DNA of 64,000 nt from Bryum argenteum (taxonomy: Eukaryota; Streptophyta; Bryopsida; Bryales; Bryaceae): assembly GCA_037043015.1 (NCBI GenBank), contig CM073329.1:15454648-15518647 (forward strand). Direction: 5' to 3'. Position 1 is the stretch's first letter, and every line of letters starts with the position of its first letter. Below the pieces are notes generated by a model. The model was not told the origin of the DNA, did no database searches, and worked only from the letters and a program-made list of their open reading frames with translations. Made by a program: the position numbers and the translations under genes. Shown in pieces: positions 2,761 to 63,579 of the stretch.

Positions 2761-3179
2761 ATTCGCTCAATTTGTTTGAGAAGTTACAAGGTGGGGCAAC
2801 AGTGCCAGAATTAGCACAGTACCGAAGTGGAAGGCTGTTTGGTGTAAAATGGTGGTCCACCGAAATTTTCCCCAAATTTTGATCGTCTGAAGCTTTTTGA
2901 GGAAATCTTGATGCCTGACAGAGCTGTTATAGTCATTAGCTATAATAATACACTTGCAAATTGATCACAAAGAAGCAGTTCTCTACAGGAGTATTCTAGA
3001 TTGGGAAGTGGTCTTCAGATGGCTCTAGCAGATCACAGAGCTGTGTACACGTTGTTATTTAGAACGCAAGGCTGTATTCTCTGGAGCAACTCAGCAACCT
3101 TCCTATATCTTAGGGACGCTTTCCATGGGGAGTCAAGGTCAACAAATCTACAAGCCAATTGACTCAATGGGCCGCTTAA

Positions 3180-3938
3180 CCCTTAAACGCCTGAGGTGAC
3201 CCGAGGGGTCATATTCCAACAGAATCTTCTCTGTAGCTCTCAATGTACTCAACTTTTCACTTATATTTTAACCCTTAAACGCCCGAGCAAGCCCGAGGGG
3301 CTTGATTCCAACAGAATCTTCCCTGTAGCTCTCATTGTACTCAACGTTTCACTTATATTTTGATGTCAAACTGGTCACCTTCTTCTGATGCATTCAAAAA
3401 GTGAATTTTCACAATTCAAATCACAATTTGTATGAATGATTTTGTGGTTTGAAAGGATTGTGGTAGGTAGGTTGGGGTGGTACATAACCTTGTAGGAGGT
3501 TGCAAGCTCATCATTGATTGGTCCATTCATGATGCCCAAGTTCAAAAAGTGCACTATTCATGATGCCCAAGTCCAAAAGATGCTGTGATCCAATTTTGGG
3601 CTGCCCGTTTTAGACCCCAAGGGCGTTTAAGGGTTAATGTCAAACTGGTCACCTTCTTCTGATGCATTCAAAAAGTGAAATTTTAGAATTCAAATCACAA
3701 TTTGTAAGAGAGATTTTGTGCTTTGAAAGGATTGTGGTAGGTAGGTTGGGGTTGTACATAACCTTGTAGGAGGTTGCAAGCTCATCATCGATTGGATCAT
3801 TCATGATGCCCAAGTTCAAAAAGTGCACTATTCATGATGCCCAAGTTCAAAAAGTGCACTATTCATGATGCCCAAGTCCAAAAGATGGTGTGATCCAATA
3901 CTAGGCTGCCCAAATTCGTATAGCCTGACGTTTAAGGG
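3180..3938 (+). mobile_element. TTAA-flanked MITE (CCCTTAAACG family), outer element of a nest
   Basis: The element starts CCCTTAAACGCC at 3180 and ends GACGTTTAAGGG at 3938, with TTAA at 3176-3179 and 3939-3942. It carries a second family member at 3272-3633. Removing that insert and one TTAA leaves 393 bp, which is exactly 31 bp longer than the 362-bp relatives. The extra 31 bp is one additional tandem copy of the TTCATGATGCCCAAGTTCAA unit near 3830-3860. No coding capacity is seen. TTAA target duplication with CCC/GGG ends matches the piggyBac hallmark. Confidence 0.85.
3272..3633 (+). mobile_element. TTAA-flanked MITE, 362 bp, inserted into a sibling element
   Basis: The terminal inverted repeat CCCTTAAACGCCC is perfect at both ends. 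TTAA lies at 3268-3271 and 3634-3637. This copy itself shows the uninterrupted site of the host element: it reads CACTTATATTTTGATGTCAA where the outer copy reads CACTTATATT, TTAA, insert, TTAA, TGTCAA. A hairpin-forming AAGCCCGAGGGGCTT lies just inside the left end. Confidence 0.88.
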
Positions 3939-4794
3939 TTAAAGAACACATTGAACGACTAATAAAGTGGGGGCCAAATTCCCTATGTGTAAAGCCCTTG
4001 GGGCCGAACCATAGAAGGAAAAACAAGGCCAAGGGGTCATTTCATATCATTAGCTACATTCCATGATTTTGATGTGTTCACATCAAAATGTTGAAGTGAA
4101 ATAATGATCATGTCTTAAAATCAAGCAACGGCCTCTAGGCCATGAATTGGCCTTCCATTCTTATATCTCCCAACTTTTGGAGTACATGCAATGGCAGAAC
4201 TTGTCCCCCACCCATTATACATAATTTCAAATAAAAATTGGCGAATCACAGGAGAGGATTTCGACATGAATTGGCCTCATCAATGGCTCGATCCCTCGTG
4301 TAAAGCAGCCCTTCGCCTTGAAAATCCCATATTGGTCATTGATGATTTAATTAATTATGAAATTTGTATACCAAAAGAAAATGGGATTAAAAAAGTAAAA
4401 TAAAATGGAGGCATAAGAAGGTCGACGTAAATCAAGGCTGAATTCACCCTTGTACTTTGACCACTAAATTTGTATACATATTGAGGTTATATAAATCCCC
4501 ATTTCACCTGACTTCAGAAATCACATTCTGACGACAAGGACTGATTTTTGAGATAAAAGTCAAATGATTCTCCATTTTCATATTTTTCATGGGTCATATT
4601 TTAGGGATTTCTCTTCTCTTTTTTAACCCATCAATGAATTGATCAATATACTAGAGTTGTTATATAGTGGTGTATGAATTAGCCATAAAACTTCCAACAT
4701 TTGGGTTCCCAATCCTAAAGTGGAGAGTATTGTTCACACTTGTCTCAAGTAGATGGGACGGGGCCGATTGATTGGTACGAATTTCCTGTCTATG

Positions 4795-7414: not shown

Positions 7415-9432
7415 ATGATTGCGGGATTAGAGATGGGTGGTGAGAAAAGGATGTTGTTTCTGCTGTTTTTGGTATTGGGATGGAGTTGTGAGGTTGATGC
7501 GGTGCGGAGGGCGAGCACGTTGAACTTGGCTTCCATGCGGATCTACACGGCGGAGTTGCAGTTGAAAGAGTCCGGGAGAGCGGCGACAGTGCTTGCAGAG
7601 CACTGTCGATCGGAGGTCGAGAGCGTGGAAGAAGGCTTGCAGACTGCCAGCAAGAAAATTGCTGTCGATCCCGATGAAGCGCGCCAGGAGCTCGTTCGAG
7701 TCGGTGATCTTCTTCAACTCTGCAACCAAAACTTAAGCTCGGTGGTGAACTCGCAAGCTTATGACTTGGTCACGCGCGTCGAGCAGAGCGTCGCTTCAGC
7801 CGAAAATCTTATCGATCACTCTGAGATCGCCGAAATCGAACCACGCTCACACGAAACTCCAGGGTAGCTAACTACCGAATTTTTTTGCATGTGAGGATCT
7901 ATGATCTGAGCAATCTCTAATTGTGCGTTTCCGTGAATTGTAGTGAGGATATTGGCGAGCTGGAGATGCCGGGGGAGGATGCGTGGGTGCCATTGTTGGA
8001 GTCTCGAGTGGGTAGAGTACCGAGCCGGTTTCCAGTGCCGCCGAAGATCAATATAGTGATGACGGACTTGGTAGTAGACTTCTGCCCGAATCATGTGGAG
8101 CTCACGGAGGGCTCAGCAACGATACGTCTCGATCGTGCCTGCGGAGGGAAGTTTCATACGCGAGCGCGCTACTCATCCGGGGTGTTCTCGATGCGGATGC
8201 GCGCTCCCTCGGGCGCGTCCGGCGTCAGCAACAGCTTCTACATCTCGTCGAACGACGGCTCCCCGGATGTAATCAGCTTTGACTTCGTCGGGAACGAGCC
8301 ACAGCGCGTGCTCACAGCCTACGCAGTGAACGGCAACCACGACCAAAAACTCAAAACCTTCCAAATGGATTTCGATACCACACTCGAATTTCACGAGTAT
8401 ACCATCAAGTGGGACGAGGAATCAATCGTCTGGATGGTGGACGACATAGTACTCCGCATCTTAAGGGCTTCCCGAGTGAAGGAGTATCCATCCAAGCCTG
8501 GTCACGTCTACGGATACTCGTGGGACGCGTCCGCGGTCGCCGACGGCGCCATGGCGGGTAAGGTTAACTGGTACAACGCGCCATATTTCATGAGCTTCGC
8601 GAACTTTCAAGTGGCGTCCCCGCTGCGAGCTCGACAGTGGCGTCCGCCGCAACAACAGAAACTGCTCTCCGTGCGCCCGCTCGTGATCGAATACTCTCCA
8701 AACAATATCGCAACAAACCCAGATGGGTACGATATCACTTTTGATAAATTCGGATGCGGTTCTCGTATCCGAAGCTTGCACGCGTACCCATCGGGAAAAT
8801 TCTCGGCACGCATCAAATGCGCAGAGGGGGATACCTCCGGGCTGCTCACGAGCTTCTATCTCTCATCAGGTGAGCATAGCTACAATAATTATCAAAGTTC
8901 ACGTTTAATACTTCGGGTAGCCTGTAGAAGTGGCGATCTCCAGTTTCAAGGAATTTGCTGCTGAAAGAAGGTCGCCGATGCTAAGGTGACCCATAATTGT
9001 ACTGTGACCATTATTCATTAATTTTAACTTACGGTTTGAACCTGATCAGGTGAGGGGAGTGTTGCCCAGGATGAGATTGATTTTGAGTTTTTGGGCGACA
9101 ACAAGCAGATGGTGCAAACGAACTTCTACGTGAACGGGACGAGTGCGAACGAGCAGTGGGTGGAGCTCGAGTACGACTGCAGCTCCGGGTTCCACACGTA
9201 CGCCATTCACTTCGACGAGCGCCAGATTCAGTGGTTCGTGGACGAGCGGTTGGTGCGCATTGTGGTGAAACAAGAGCAGCAGGAAAGTGGCTTTCCTGTG
9301 AAGAAGATGTTTCTGTATTCTTCGGTATGGAATGCGAGTGATGTTAACGATGGGGGTTGGACTGGGAAGTGGCACGGCATGTCGGAGCTTCCGTTCGTCG
9401 CTCGCTTCAAGGACGTGACCGCCTCTTACTAA
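7415..9432 (+). CDS. Secreted fusion protein: PMEI-like domain, degenerate GH16, intact GH16 (XTH-like)
   Basis: There are three exons, 7415-7863, 7944-8869 and 9050-9432, with matching phases, giving about 585 residues. In-frame ATGs lie at codons 1, 7 and 13, just before the hydrophobic segment LFLLFLVLGWSC, a likely signal peptide. Residues ~40-135 resemble the later helices of pectin methylesterase inhibitor domains: AEHCRSEV, then VRVGDLLQLCNQNLSS, then a heptad-like tail. Residues ~170-395 form a first GH16 fold with VHYxGYSW- and NAPYF-like motifs, but its catalytic strand reads DVISFDFVGN (258-267). Residues ~395-585 form a second GH16 fold with the canonical DEIDFEFLGD (466-475). This should act on xyloglucan or related wall glucans outside the cell. 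The XET_C tail of true XTHs is absent, and the protein ends just after PFVARFKDVTASY. The domain order is unusual; a model error joining two genes is unlikely because the introns are short and the phases fit. Confidence 0.85.
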
Positions 9433-11812: not shown

Positions 11813-14800
11813 TTAGGGAAGAGGGGCAGAAGAAGATGATGGCAGTGCCTGGAGGATAAACTTTCGAGCGCTTCGGAGTCCTGGCGGAGTTCCACTGCCA
11901 TCTCGTTGCTCCCTGTTGCCTCCGTAGCGCGGTGGCGTCACTCGTTTCTGCTTTGGAGAGCTCGACTTGGTCACGGTGCTTCGACTCGGAGAACCCATCT
12001 CCTCTTGACTATACTTGATAAACTCGGGGGTGTCGTCATCGTCTGCGTTGTTGCCCATCTTCACCGATTCAAGTTCACTTTGAAGGTTCTTTCCTGACGG
12101 CTGCATTGAGGGCGCGTACTGTTGACTTGAGTGTTGCCCTTGGTCTATCAATCGAGGTGTGTCGAATCGGGACGGTGACCGTGGAGCCGGCTGCCTGAAT
12201 TTCGGTGAATGTGGTGACCAATTTCTGCACCCAATTAACCCTTTTGTTAAGCATAAGATTCAACCGACTTGAGCTTATGAAGGCTCTAAGCTTTGTTGAA
12301 TAGCTTTCAGAACGACATGTGACACGAGATCAGATGTAATACGGGTTACGATACGGTTCGAGCAATGGCGACAGTTCACTTTCAGAAACTCGTAAACTGC
12401 AGCATTCATACGAAAATGTTTTCCAGAAGGAGAAGGAAAGGGTTAGGAAAACGCAAAACCGATGGTTATTTTTGGGACAGAAGAAGAAAAAGAAAACAAA
12501 ACTAGAAATTTTACAGGCATTGGTTGCTAGAGATCTCATGCACTGCACTCTAAAAACCACAACTTCCTTTTCCTGATGAACACTGAAATCCCAAAATCTC
12601 GCCACCAGCCGTTAGACAGATCACATTGACATTAGATACAGAAAATTCCTGAAAATTGCACTTTACCTGTTCTCACAGTAATTTAGGGGAAGGGTGGTGA
12701 GAAGTGGGGTACCTTTGATGATGCGTGCTTGTAGAAGACGCGGCATGATACGGAGACTCAGTCATCTGGCTACTGAAAGCAGGGGAAGCACCAGGTCGTT
12801 CAGAAGTGACACAGGAGGTGGAGCCCGGCGTAGGACGCAACGGAGCCATAGGTAAGGGAGTGAGGGTACAAATATCTCCGAGCCCCTCCCAGCGAGGCGA
12901 AAGATGGCCGATACGAGCAAACGTTGGGGTAGTCATCGGGGAGTCTCCCGCTCCACTCATGGAGAAGTCGGCGTCGCTGCCTTGTGGATACGGCACGAGA
13001 TGGAACGAGTCCAAAGTGTTGGACAACCTTGATGCTGGTTGCTGTGCTAACGGCGATGCACAATGCTCAGTGTCGAAGGAGTTTCGTCTGCCCCGTCCCG
13101 TTGACCTCGCTCTCAACAACGACCTTCCAAGCCTGCCACAAGCCCTACACCGATAAGGATCCAAACAATAGTAACCTGTAAAAGGGGTGGTTACTGAAAC
13201 AGTTTTGAGGTTATGTACCCGTCGTGTTCGAAAGTAGGAGTGATTGGAGACAGAATTGGCTTCGCAGAATCACGGAGTCGGTCGGATTTTCCACTCATCC
13301 TATTGAGAAGCTCGATGGGGTTCTCAGCGTGAGACTCATCCAGTGGGGAGTTCGCCTGCTGCTCTCCTTCCTTCGCCTCACCCTCCTCCGGCCCTGCATT
13401 GCACTTAATGTCAGATGGAAGAATCTAACGGACTTGGTAGGTTGTTCTTCACCCGCACAAATACTAATAGCCAGAACCTTCATGGTTGATCTGATTCATG
13501 TCGTCGAATGTAACTACAATCTTCAAACCCTCATCCTAAAGACTTGAAAACTGACGATATCAAGAGAAACAGCAATAGATTTATCTTTACACCGAAAAAC
13601 AAGTCTTCTACCCCACTATTCCTCACTAGAGTTGTTCAGACAAATCCCAGAGCATGGCCTTGTGATGAAAAGGTAATTGTGAGAAGATTCTTCAGATGAC
13701 TGAGCTTCACTAATAGAGGTCAGTGGTACGCACCTTCCTTCCTGCCATACATGTTCTTACAACCCTCGCACCGACATCCTTCGGAACACCCAACACCAGC
13801 CTGTTCACAACATCGGCACTATTATGAGTCTCCAAGTAAAGTTTTCACTCGCTAATGGAGACAACGATGAAGAGAAGGATATAGTTACCTGGTAACATTC
13901 GCAGTACTTTTTGAGACAAAGGGACTTCTTGCAGTTACAACCACGCTTATGTCTGGCCGAGGCTGGAGTGTCCAGAGCCTCATCCTGCAGCACCATTACA
14001 ATAAGCTTAGAATATATCTTATTAACCGGTCGCAATAAAAAGAAAAGTGGGTTTCGACTTACCCCAGGAGCAGGAGAGGATTCAGCAGCTACAATCTTGG
14101 GAGCAAACGCCAGTGGATTACGAGATAGAATCTGCAGTCTAGTATTCTGGACCGTCTCGTCATATTCAGGCTTGTTGAAACAATCGTGACACGCACATGT
14201 ACCGACACATTTCACACCCGCAGCAAAACACTCACAGTACCTGCCAATCCACAGCACAAATGTCAAAACCCAGTGCCCAATAAAAATGTCTAGAGGACCA
14301 AACACTGCTATATGACTCAATATGATGAAGGTAATACGTACAGTTTGAGACACTTGGATCTTTTGCAGTTGCACCGCTTGCAGCCGTCTGCTGATTTTTC
14401 ACTCTGAGAAGACACATTCGATTTCCGCCTCGACAACCTGGGAACACAATGCAACGTTAGAAGGTCTTCAAATGCGCAAATTCTGGACACTTTAAAGTTG
14501 AGATGAGCAGGTTCATGTGAAGATGAAACTATGAAACAGTTAAAATGAGTGAACTCTAGACAATTAAAAGAATGTCACCATTCAAAGTGGAGCTCACCGT
14601 CTTCGTTTGCTTCGTGGGCTGTCCATGAGATCGTCCATAGGGTCGTCATCGCCTTGTGGGATCAACTCTTGTTGAGATCGTTTCTGTCCACGAGGGCTAA
14701 CAAGTCTTGGCAGATTGGCAAGCGGAGTCAATGACAAAGTCTCTTCCAGAGGAGCCAGATTCTCAATATTGAGAGACCTGAAATCAGTAGTAGGAAATTC

Positions 14801-29667: not shown

Positions 29668-30591
29668 CCCCTAAAAATCCAGGAAAGCCGATTCGGTTTT
29701 CTGAGATTTCGGGCAGCTCATTTTAAGCATTTAAACTGATATTTTTGCCTAAGATTTTTATTGGGTGCTCCACATGCAGTAATGTGTATGTGGTAAAATT
29801 TTCAAAGTCAAATTTTAATTTTATAACCTTCATCTAGAAATTTTAGGTTTCAAGTCCAAATCGGGCAGTTTAAAATAATTTTTTTAATTTTTTTTTTTTT
29901 TAGAAATATGTTCATTACCAAATTACTATTCAAATTCCAATGTGTCCGAAGTCAAAAAGTTTACCAATTTTACAAGGGCAGCCTCCAAAACTTTCAAAAA
30001 CAATCTTCACAATTTCTAGTAATTTTAAAATTTTTCTTTCAAAAATTGCCAAAATTCGAGATTTTGGATTTTTTCCAAGATTTTTTTCAAAATTCACATT
30101 ATCATAAATGCACCTTCTCACCGTCGAGATTTTTCTCAAACTAAATATATCATACGTGGTGCTTGTTTTACTATATGGTTGTTTTTAGACCTTCTTTCAT
30201 AAAATATTTTACATTAAGGTCAAAAAGTGGAATTGGTCTCTAAAATTTTGCATGAGCATAACCAACTTGAATACCTACATGAAAAAAAATGAGGGAAAAA
30301 TATTTGGAATAACAATCATCAAGTTGCCCTTGGCACCATTTAGACAATGCCTCTCACGCAGTGGCAAAAAAAAAGTGTTGGTCAAACTTTGATTGTTATG
30401 ATCTCACAAATGAAAAACATCCAACGGTTGAAATTTTGACCAGTCCTTTGTATACAAGTTAGGTACAAGATCTTACGGTTCAAAGTCTAAAACCAGAAAA
30501 AAAAGTTTCTCCATTTCCCCATTTCCCAACGAAGGTGAAAAATGGCAGTTTTTGGTTCTGGAGGTCGAGGAAACCCCTGGATTTTTAGGGG
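29668..30591. mobile_element. TTAA-flanked element with CCCCTAAAAATCCAGG ends, 924 bp
   Basis: The left and right terminal repeats match over 16 bases (CCCCTAAAAATCCAGG). TTAA lies at 29664-29667 and 30592-30595. The interior contains AACATCCAACGGTTGAAATT and is related to the smaller elements at 38810 and 49521. No transposase frame. A partial end of a relative (CCCCTAAAGATCCACGATG) lies just upstream at 29583. Confidence 0.85.
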
Positions 30592-46262: not shown

Positions 46263-46691
46263 GTAGCAAAGTGCATTATTAAAATTCCCTAGAGCCTCGA
46301 GGTTCCTCAACAGATGAGTCATCCATGTATAAAATATAGTGTAGATAAAATGGGGGTGGAGTTTAAAGGGCTCCAAATAGAAAAGAAAAGGAGGGGAGAG
46401 TTGTCAGGGATGTGTGGTCCTGGGGTAACAATCAAGTGTTCATATACCAAAATCGGCTGTGTGCTGCCTGTCTGGTGTACTTTAGTTGCACTACAGTAAC
46501 ATAATTCACCTGCCAGGCGTGTTCCAAGAATCTGTCCGCATCGGATACCCACTGAACCTGGTCCTTCCGCTTTTCCTTTTCCGAGTTAGGGACGCTTTGC
46601 ATGGGGAGTCAAGCGCCAACAAATCTCCAAGCCAATTCATTCACATTTTCAGCCCAGTTTGCTCCATGGGTTACTCCGAGAACACATTTAA

Positions 46692-47794
46692 CCCTTAACC
46701 CTGGAACGTCGGAGCGGCCATTTTATGTCCGATGAACAGAACATTTTCACTGTAACCTATTATTGCGGGATGAATTTCATTCATGATTTTTGTAATTGGA
46801 TTTATGAATGATAATAGCATATCATGGAATTCATTTGAGGTCATTTAAGGTATTTCCTAAGATCACATGTGGTATGAAAGTTGAAAGAATGGTTAAAACA
46901 AATCACCACAAAGTGCATTTCTGCAACTTTTTCCTACTTTTATTAAGTCTCAAATTTAGGCAACTAAATGATCTTTTTTGAGTTCAAGCTCAATTCATAA
47001 AATGAATCTTACCAAGTCTTGTTTCTACTCCAAGTTAGAATTTCAAGAAATTCCTAATATCTAGTGATTTCTCGACACCTTAAGTTTACATGCCTATAGG
47101 GTCTCTTTCTCAATTTTCAAATATAGCATGACACGAAACCATGGATTACACCATGCTATTCTTCACTACAATGTCCCCTTATTCTAAATATTTCAGATTT
47201 TTTGAAAGTGATTTGTATTTGATATGAATTATTTTTGTTTTTTCTTTGAAAATTCACTTGAATTTCAAATCTTCCCAAAAAAATCTGAAATTTTTACAGC
47301 ATATGAAAAGCATGTGATCACATCTACGAAAAATAAAATAAAATATTTTACTTTCAGGTAAAGTGGCGAAATGGAGGATTCAGAGTAAGACATATCAAAG
47401 TTCAGGCCACGGTTATGGGCTCCGACGTTCTAGGGTTAAACGCCCTTGGGGTCTAAAACGGGCAGCCCAAAATTGAATCACAGCATCTTTTGGACTTGGG
47501 CATCATGAATAGTGCACTTTTTGAACTTGGGCATCATGAATGGACCAATCAATGATGAGCTTGCAACCTCCTACAAGGTTATGTACCACCCCAACCTACC
47601 TACCACAATCCTTTCAAAGCACAAAATCACTCATACAAATTGTGATTTGAATTGTGAAATTTCACTTTTTGAATGCATCAGAAGAAGGTGACCAGTTTGA
47701 CATCAAAATATGAGTGAAATGTTGAGTACAGTGAGAGTTACAGGGAAGATTCTATTGGAATCAAGCCCCTCGGGCTTGCTTGGGCGTTTAAGGG
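46692..47794 (-). mobile_element. TTAA-flanked MITE (CCCTTAAACG family), outer element interrupted in its own terminal repeat
   Basis: TTAA flanks lie at 46688-46691 and 47795-47798. The left terminal repeat CCC-TTAA-ACGCCC is split at its internal TTAA by another element. Removing the 737-bp insert and one 4-bp TTAA leaves 362 bp, exactly the length of the copy at 3272-3633, to which it is nearly identical in reverse orientation. Confidence 0.9.
46699..47435. mobile_element. TTAA-flanked element with CCCTrGAACGTCGGAGC ends, 737 bp, inserted in a MITE
   Basis: The left end is CCCTGGAACGTCGGAGC. The right end inverted is CCCTAGAACGTCGGAGC. TTAA lies at 46695-46698 and 47436-47439. Excision restores the intact terminal repeat of the host element. 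The interior is non-coding and AT-rich. Confidence 0.9.
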
Positions 47795-48190
47795 TTAACA
47801 ACTAACAAAGTGTGGGTCAGTTCCCCCATGTGTACATCACTTGCGGCTGATTTCTAGAAGAAAAAACAAGGTCGTGGGGCCAAATCGTGTTACAAGCTAC
47901 ATTCCAATCCTTTGATTTGTTCACATAGAAATTAAATAATGATTATATATTGACATCGAGCAACGGCCTCTAGGCCATGAATTGGCCTTCCAATCTTGAA
48001 TCTCCCAACTTTTGGAGCGCAAGCACTGTCATAAATTGTCCCCTACCCATTGTAATATAATATCAGAACATTGACCTTGACTCCCCATGTAAAGCCATTG
48101 TGGTCAATTTCAAGAAAGAGGCCAATCACAAGAGAGGATTTTGCTATGAATTGGCCTCATCATTAGCTTGGCCCCTCCTCTAAAAGGTGC

Positions 48191-49520: not shown

Positions 49521-49780
49521 CCCCTAAAGGTCCAAGAAAGCGGAAATCGCTTCTTGGAATTTCCGCAGGGAGAAAATTCAGCCAACTTTGACCATTATAA
49601 TCTCAAAATTGGAGAAAAATTAACGGTTCAAATTTGACATTCGAGAAAAGGGTCAAGTTAACTTCAAGATCCTACGGTTGGATCTTCTAATCAATGCTTA
49701 GATTGAGTTTCTTTGCACCTGAAGTAGAAGAAGGTTCTTTTTGATAATTTAAACAATCTTGTATCAAGGACCTTTAGGGG
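49521..49780. mobile_element. TTAA-flanked element with CCCCTAAAGGTCC ends, 260 bp
   Basis: The 13-base terminal repeats CCCCTAAAGGTCC are perfect. TTAA lies at 49517-49520 and 49781-49784. The interior AAGATCCTACGGTTGGATCT links it to the element at 38810. It is head-to-tail with the previous element across a single TTAA. Confidence 0.85.
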
Positions 49781-61908: not shown

Positions 61909-61980
61909 CCCTTAAACGTCAAGCCCCTCTGAAAATACACTGGAAACCAAGCCCGAGGGGCATGCTCTGACGTTTAAGGG
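61909..61980. mobile_element. Minimal TTAA-flanked MITE, 72 bp
   Basis: Perfect 13-base ends CCCTTAAACGTCA and inverse, with TTAA at 61905-61908 and 61981-61984. It keeps the subterminal AGCCCCTC/GAGGGGC pair of the 362-bp relatives and almost nothing between. It is the smallest copy in the window. Confidence 0.9.
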
Positions 61981-62742: not shown

Positions 62743-63579
62743 CCCCTGAAGGTCTTGAAAACCCAAAATGGATTTTTGCTATTTCACGTTGCCTCAACGA
62801 AGAAATTAAAACCAATATTCTTGCCTAAAATTTTAACTAGGTGTTTCTTATAGTGCAAAGTATATGTGGTCGAATTTGAAAAGCCAAATTCCAACGTTAG
62901 AATCTTCATCTAGAAATTTGAGGTTTCATGTTCAAAAAGGGTAGCTTAGAACTAGTATTTTTTATTTCATTAAAATTTATCAATCTCACAGTCAAGGGCA
63001 ACGTTTAAAAAATACAACAACAATCTTCAAGATTTTTGGAATTTTACCTATTATTTCTTTCTAATTTTGTCAAAAATTGAGATTTTGGGTTTTTTTGAAA
63101 AAACTTTCACTTAGAAATCATAAACTTATAAAGGTACCTAGTCATTGTTCACTTTTTTTATAACTAGAATACATTAAACGTGATGCTTGCTTTTTTGAAT
63201 TGTTGTTTTTATGCATTGTTCTAGGAAAAGAAAAAAAATAAAAATAGATGAAGGTACAAGAAGCATAACGAGTCTCTAAAATTTTGCATGTGCGTTCTCA
63301 ATTTAGTTATCTACATGGAAAAAGAAATATGAACAAAATGTTTGGGGTAACAATCATCAAGTCTCCCTTTACTCAAAGTAAACTATGTATCCCGCACAAT
63401 GCCAAAAAAAAGTTTTGCATCACCTTTGAATGCTCTAATCTCACAACTGGTGCAGATTTAATGGTTTGTATTTGACATGGTATTCCTAATAGTAGTTTGC
63501 TTTGAGATCTTACAGTTGACTATTCTTTCAAACAATTAAAAAACTCGCACTTTTAAAAAAAACACTCGGATCTTTAGGG
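62743..63579. mobile_element. Decayed relative of the 29668 TTAA element
   Basis: The left end CCCCTGAAGGTCTTGAAAAC and the right end GGATCTTTAGGG fit the family, but the flanks are ATAA and AATA, so the target copies have mutated. The internal order (ACTAGGTGTTTCTTATAGTG, TCTAGAAATTTGAGGTTTCA) follows the intact element at 29668. Confidence 0.55.

Follow-up and report, generated by a model that had tools for sequence, protein, structure and literature searches.

Nested TTAA-Flanked Elements in the Moss Bryum argenteum Are Probable Non-Autonomous Members of the piggyBac Superfamily

A stretch of 64,000 nucleotides from the moss Bryum argenteum (C9:15454648–15518647 of a 258.8-Mb assembly in 25 contigs; hereafter the window) contains two short mobile elements, one of which is inserted within the terminal repeat of the other. 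The question raised by this locus is what kind of transposase has moved these elements and whether it is encoded in the same genome. A preliminary description of the window had proposed that a piggyBac-like (or Sola3) transposase is or was active in this plant. In this report, we conclude that the nested elements are very probably MITEs, non-autonomous elements belonging to the moss's piggyBac superfamily, and that the transposase of full-length relatives would have moved them. The inner element is denoted A and the outer one is of type B. The features of the window are collected in Table 1.

Table 1. Mobile elements and target duplications identified in the window
Feature	Position	Strand	Remarks
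Left TTAA target duplication of the outer B-type element	46688..46691	.	letters read
Outer B-type non-autonomous element	46692..47794	-	1103 bp with insert; 362 bp minus A and one TTAA
TTAA within the terminal repeat of the outer element = left duplication of A	46695..46698	.	letters read
Element A, 737 bp, non-autonomous, ends CCCTGGAACGTCGGAGC / CCCTAGAACGTCGGAGC	46699..47435	+	
Right TTAA duplication of A	47436..47439	.	letters read
Right TTAA target duplication of the outer element	47795..47798	.	letters read
Element B, 362 bp, TTAA at 3268-3271 and 3634-3637	3272..3633	+	nested in 3180-3938
Diverged B-type element 3180-3938, TTAA at 3176-3179 and 3939-3942	3176..3942	+	split by 3272-3633
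260-bp element, CCCCTAAAGG ends, TTAA on both sides	49521..49780	.	terminal type as L126
924-bp element, CCCCTAAAAATCC ends, TTAA on both sides	29668..30591	.	near-end stretches 76-85% identical to L126
72-bp element, CCCTTAAACGTC ends, TTAA on both sides	61909..61980	.	

The terminal repeat of the outer element that serves as the host of A is CCCTTAAACG. When A and one TTAA were removed from the outer element, 362 bp were left (1103 – 737 – 4), and the joined sequence was found to align without gaps to the element at 3272–3633 in the reverse orientation, with 352 of 362 positions identical (97%). The preliminary description had placed A at the internal TTAA of this repeat, with TTAA on both sides, and had arrived at the same length by subtraction; its coordinates were confirmed. 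What it did not contain is that the reference copy at 3272–3633 is itself a nested insertion at TTAA. The flanks of this copy, when joined over a single TTAA, form a collinear relative of B (the diverged copy at 3180–3938). A further nested arrangement, L075, was found on contig C1. Here a third element, which has CCCTTAAGCG at one end and CCCCTAAACG at the other, is located inside a copy of A at one of A's own TTAA sites. A chance origin of the terminal repeats was rejected, as the window contains 16 occurrences of TTAACCCTTAAACG with up to two mismatches, whereas 0.48 would be expected from shuffled sequences. An Rfam scan of the window returned no match at the gathering scores. The window also contains a GH16 family gene at 7921–8961 (closest database match, 97%; highest-ranking named match, a Physcomitrium patens protein, 70% identical over 81% of the query, in keeping with a moss host; next, a fern protein, 48%) and, on the minus strand at 13808–14398, a fragment of a gene with a Tesmin/TSO1-like CXC domain.

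The target duplication was determined from copies elsewhere in the genome. For A, the best 40 of 265 candidates were read, including the copy in the window, and TTAA was found on both sides of 38 of them; copy L024 is flanked by CTAG on both sides, and in copy L022 the left flank is TTAA but the right end is altered. For B, 27 of the best 40 full-length copies (2810 candidates in the first look) were read, again including the copy in the window. Each of the 27 is bordered by TTAA at its left and right, and the flanking sequences differ between copies. Since the flanks and the divergence were taken from the best-scoring copies, both the divergence and the frequency of TTAA are biased toward young copies. 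The exact 17-mer end of A occurs 443 times in the genome and the exact 14-mer preceded by TTAA 426 times; TTAA adjoins 97 of the first 100 listed 17-mer ends, all of which come from C1, C2, or the beginning of C3. The exact TTAA duplication proposed in the preliminary description was thus borne out in the copies read, and the comparison of flanks that it called for places the 27 copies of B at different sites.

At a single TTAA site, duplications of TA, TAA, and TTAA are indistinguishable, and the elements might then be Stowaway (TA) or Tourist (TAA/TTA) MITEs with fortuitous TTAA targets. However, CTAG was duplicated whole in L024, and TTAT was duplicated whole in one of the 11 copies read for a second transposase-bearing element, L126 (C8:13523450; the other 10 have TTAA on both sides). 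The target duplication of the A and L126-type copies is therefore a true 4 bp, rather than TA or TAA, and differs from the 2-bp TA duplication of Stowaway. With TTAA beside 97 of the 100 A ends, and with a piggyBac transposase frame in the partner of B described below, an origin as Stowaway or Tourist elements is scarcely credible. For animal piggyBac, rare targets other than TTAA are also reported in a passage of PMC10813416.

Among 100 of the 530 B-type ends in the genome, one facing pair was found 5.2 kb apart. This pair delimits an element of 5191 bp (L076) with TTAA-CCCTTAAACG at both ends. L076 contains an open frame of 897 amino acids that matches PF13843 (DDE_Tnp_1_7) with E = 1.4e-82, the solved transposase 6x67 with E = 2e-29, and piggyBat (9c0f) with E = 7.7e-24. 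The database entry for 6x67 is entitled Transposase, and we take this protein to be T. ni piggyBac. Residues Asp 268, 346, 447, and 450 of 6x67, which are presumably the catalytic residues, align to Asp 572, 651, 764, and 767 of L076. The C-terminal stretch of the frame is Cys-rich by sequence, and no domain model matched that stretch; the match to piggyBat extends to residue 895 and thus into the Cys-rich end.

Over their first 17 bases, the two ends of B are each identical (17 of 17 positions) to one end of L076, the first to its right end and the second to its left end, whereas only 14 of 17 positions agree when the ends are crossed. This pairing indicates that B is most probably a shortened relative of an L076-type element that has kept both of the distinct ends, and not a chance look-alike. 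A PF13843 frame inside an element with the ends of B is what is expected for piggyBac, and Sola3 is unnecessary for this family. At the level of sequence, the assignment of the B family to piggyBac is supported.

When the L076 gene was used as a DNA query, the best 40 of 157 candidates yielded 48 matching stretches with identities of 100% to 67%, and each of the eleven large contigs is represented. Four gene copies, L076 included, reach at least 96% identity to L076; the whole frame is open in L076 only, and several relatives of L076 have broken frames. An end of the TTAACCCT type (at most one mismatch) was found within 1.3 kb downstream of 16 of 19 further transposase gene copies; 3 of the 19 downstream stretches lack such an end, none was found at L099, and none was found in a 20th stretch (L108), which is located upstream of a gene copy. 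Near one end of L076, at positions 557–792, a unit of 21 bp is repeated in tandem about 11 times; the close relatives L097 and L098 do not align to this array. One candidate, L094, was discarded as not piggyBac. This stretch starts with a CCCTTAAACG end and carries a DUF7869 open frame at 583–1377 (E = 4.3e-40), and it is possibly another mobile element.

A profile search of the whole genome with PF13843 gave at least 116 matches over the curated cut-off (116 scored of 776 candidates), many of them with open frames of at least 800 amino acids. The same search of 14 control genomes gave 0 matches. Several of the scores were equal, which suggested near-identical genes, and L126 is among them. 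Together with the adjoining L127, L126 forms an element of 5697 bp that has CCCCTAAAGGCCC ends and is flanked by TTAA on either side. Its frame of 831 amino acids matches PF13843 with E = 1e-75 and is 38.6% identical to L076 over 459 amino acids. A Cys-rich stretch is found just downstream of the stop codon in another frame, which suggests a short intron or a frameshift between the two. In a DNA search with the L126 gene, at least 40 full-length copies were found at a rounded identity of 100% over 2493 bp, and these copies, the best 40 of 212 candidates, are spread over C1 to C11. Both ends were read for 10 other L126-type copies, and all 10 are located in different flanks, on eight contigs, with perfect 4-bp duplications (TTAA in nine, TTAT on both sides in one). 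In a tree of 35 rows (33 database proteins, L076, and L126), L076 and L126 fall in one clade with support of 100/99. Six further database proteins are in the same clade, and the five named animal rows fall outside.

Taken together, the B family, L076, and L126 show the following properties of the piggyBac superfamily: short CCY terminal inverted repeats (CCCTTAAACG and CCCCTAAAGG ends), the 4-bp TTAA duplication, and PF13843, the last with aligned Asp residues in L076 and by the profile match in L126. The preliminary description had noted elements that start with CCC and end with GGG, and these ends are indeed of the piggyBac type, CCCT...AGGG; a passage of PMC10813416 gives CCCTT as the most conserved 5' motif of piggyBac. 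In the window, positions 63236–63446 match a portion of the L126 element at 79% identity and are perhaps a remnant of this lineage. Contig C1 (44.1 Mb) is poor in elements of these kinds. Of the first 100 listed A ends, C1 carries 7 and C2, a smaller contig, carries 70; C1 also has 5 of the 116 PF13843 rows and 1 of the 40 L126-type copies. Possibly, C1 represents a sex chromosome or consists largely of heterochromatin.

The ends of A, CCCTRGAACG, are of the CCY type, and A has the 4-bp TTAA duplication of the piggyBac superfamily. The two ends of A are identical at 16 of 17 positions; they agree with the right (nearer) end of L076 at 13 of 17, and with the B/L076 ends overall at 10 to 13 of 17. 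At 25 of the 116 PF13843 matches, those carried by C1, C2, and C3 up to 6.2 Mb, no PF13843 gene was found between exact A-type ends (CCCTRGAACGTCGG); the exact A-type end nearest to these matches is 5.7 kb off, in an ordinary A copy beside L076. The ends beside some of the other 91 matches are of the CCCTTAA or CCCCTAA type. Candidates for a longer partner of A were also rejected. L077–L081, L083, L084, and L086–L091 are ordinary A copies in which the partner end is altered, interrupted, or absent, and L082 and L085 match only over 21–25 bp at an end. The DDE_Tnp_1_7 copy with shared ends that the preliminary description had suggested was thus obtained for B, in the form of L076, and for A none was found at the 25 matches.

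A is presumably mobilised by a piggyBac transposase. Sola3 and Kolobok also use TTAA targets, and A might belong to one of these TTAA-inserting superfamilies, so that piggyBac would apply to the B family only. The missing transposase of A, among the 25 of 116 matches, and the agreement of its ends with those of B and L076 at just 10 to 13 positions would be consistent with such an origin. However, the ends of A are of the piggyBac type, the right end of L076 has 13 of the 17 positions in common with them, and A and B use the same target. PF13843 genes are abundant in this genome, in which A occurs among at least 116 piggyBac matches, and no further superfamily needs to be invoked. A separate superfamily for A is therefore considered unlikely.

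Among the best 40 of 265 A copies, 12 have no substitution against the consensus, and the rest differ by 1.6% or less, with gaps uncounted. Among the best 40 of 2810 B candidates, 19 are identical over the full length, including the copy in the window. These identical copies, together with the result for L126, show that copies with a transposase and non-autonomous copies were both amplified very recently. The broken frames in several relatives of L076 might indicate that the transposases are old, inactive remnants and that the near-identical copies arose by segmental duplication or assembly error. Segmental duplication was rejected, however, as the flanks differ at the 27 B copies and at the 10 L126-type copies, each of the latter with its own perfect 4-bp duplication, and we regard this explanation as very improbable.

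The evidence leans toward a live piggyBac system in this moss, in which the L126 lineage, with at least 40 near-identical copies and independent checked sites, is accompanied by an L076 lineage that feeds the burst of B-type MITEs. As for the transposase activity that the preliminary description had proposed, the piggyBac frame for B and the recent spread are in agreement with it, while its extension to A and to the present day is presumptive.

The collective steps proposed for these elements would begin with the production of a piggyBac transposase by full-length relatives elsewhere in this genome, where an open transposase frame is observed inside an element with the ends of B. The transposase would bind the CCCT...AGGG ends. 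The element would then be cut out and inserted at TTAA, with one TTAA left on each side; the 4-bp target duplication and the nested empty sites are seen directly in the DNA, and we infer the chemistry of the cut, an excision without footprint, cross-mobilisation, and present-day activity. The outer (B) family would be derived by shortening from an L076-type element. The inner (A) family, with related ends and the same target, would depend for its movement on this transposase or on a sister of it.

The moss elements resemble the piggyBac represented by 6x67 in the TTAA target, the CCCT...AGGG ends, PF13843, and the four aligned Asp residues. They differ from it in that the domain is preceded by a long N-terminal part (about 425 amino acids in L076), and also in the size of the elements (5–6 kb), the moss host, and the many diverged lineages within one genome. 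The match of piggyBat into the Cys-rich C-terminus of L076 is a further likeness, although the sequences are distant, and the host of piggyBat is a bat, as stated in the abstract of PMC11707139. Short non-autonomous elements have been assigned to, or discussed with, piggyBac in parts of PMC10004981 and PMC2872659. Unlike those MITEs, the elements described here are accompanied in the same genome by an element that bears a transposase between the same pair of ends, and many of the copies are identical or nearly so.

The distribution of piggyBac is reportedly the subject of Sarkar et al. 2003. In the passages available, piggyBac is placed in fungi, plants, and metazoans (PMC8086355), is included among the plant DNA transposon superfamilies (PMC10794571) and among the superfamilies of angiosperm MITEs (PMC10004981), is named 57 times in a paper on coral MITEs (PMC2872659), and is described as occasional in plants, for example in red algae (PMC12732532). 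A table from the C-fern genome paper gives 1230 copies of piggyBac, or 0.00% (PMC6890710). Studies in fungi and plants are described as limited in one such passage, and the searched passages of PMC4309413 do not mention a native plant piggyBac. No report of piggyBac from a bryophyte was found in the literature searched, a search mostly without reach into subscription journals. The earlier remark that piggyBac is rarely reported from land plants must be qualified, as several papers list it for plants, but little detail is given in them. The superfamily is known, and what is notable here is the bryophyte host, the open transposase frames, and the recent burst.

Recent spread has seldom been documented for piggyBac in plants. 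In this moss, open transposase frames and a corresponding MITE family occur together with near-identical copies at independent TTAA sites, so that the existence of a live piggyBac in a land plant can be tested directly. The same system makes it possible to address the control of these elements by the host and the vertical versus horizontal descent of the lineage. If the proposal is correct, Bryum argenteum would contain a native, and possibly live, plant piggyBac system.
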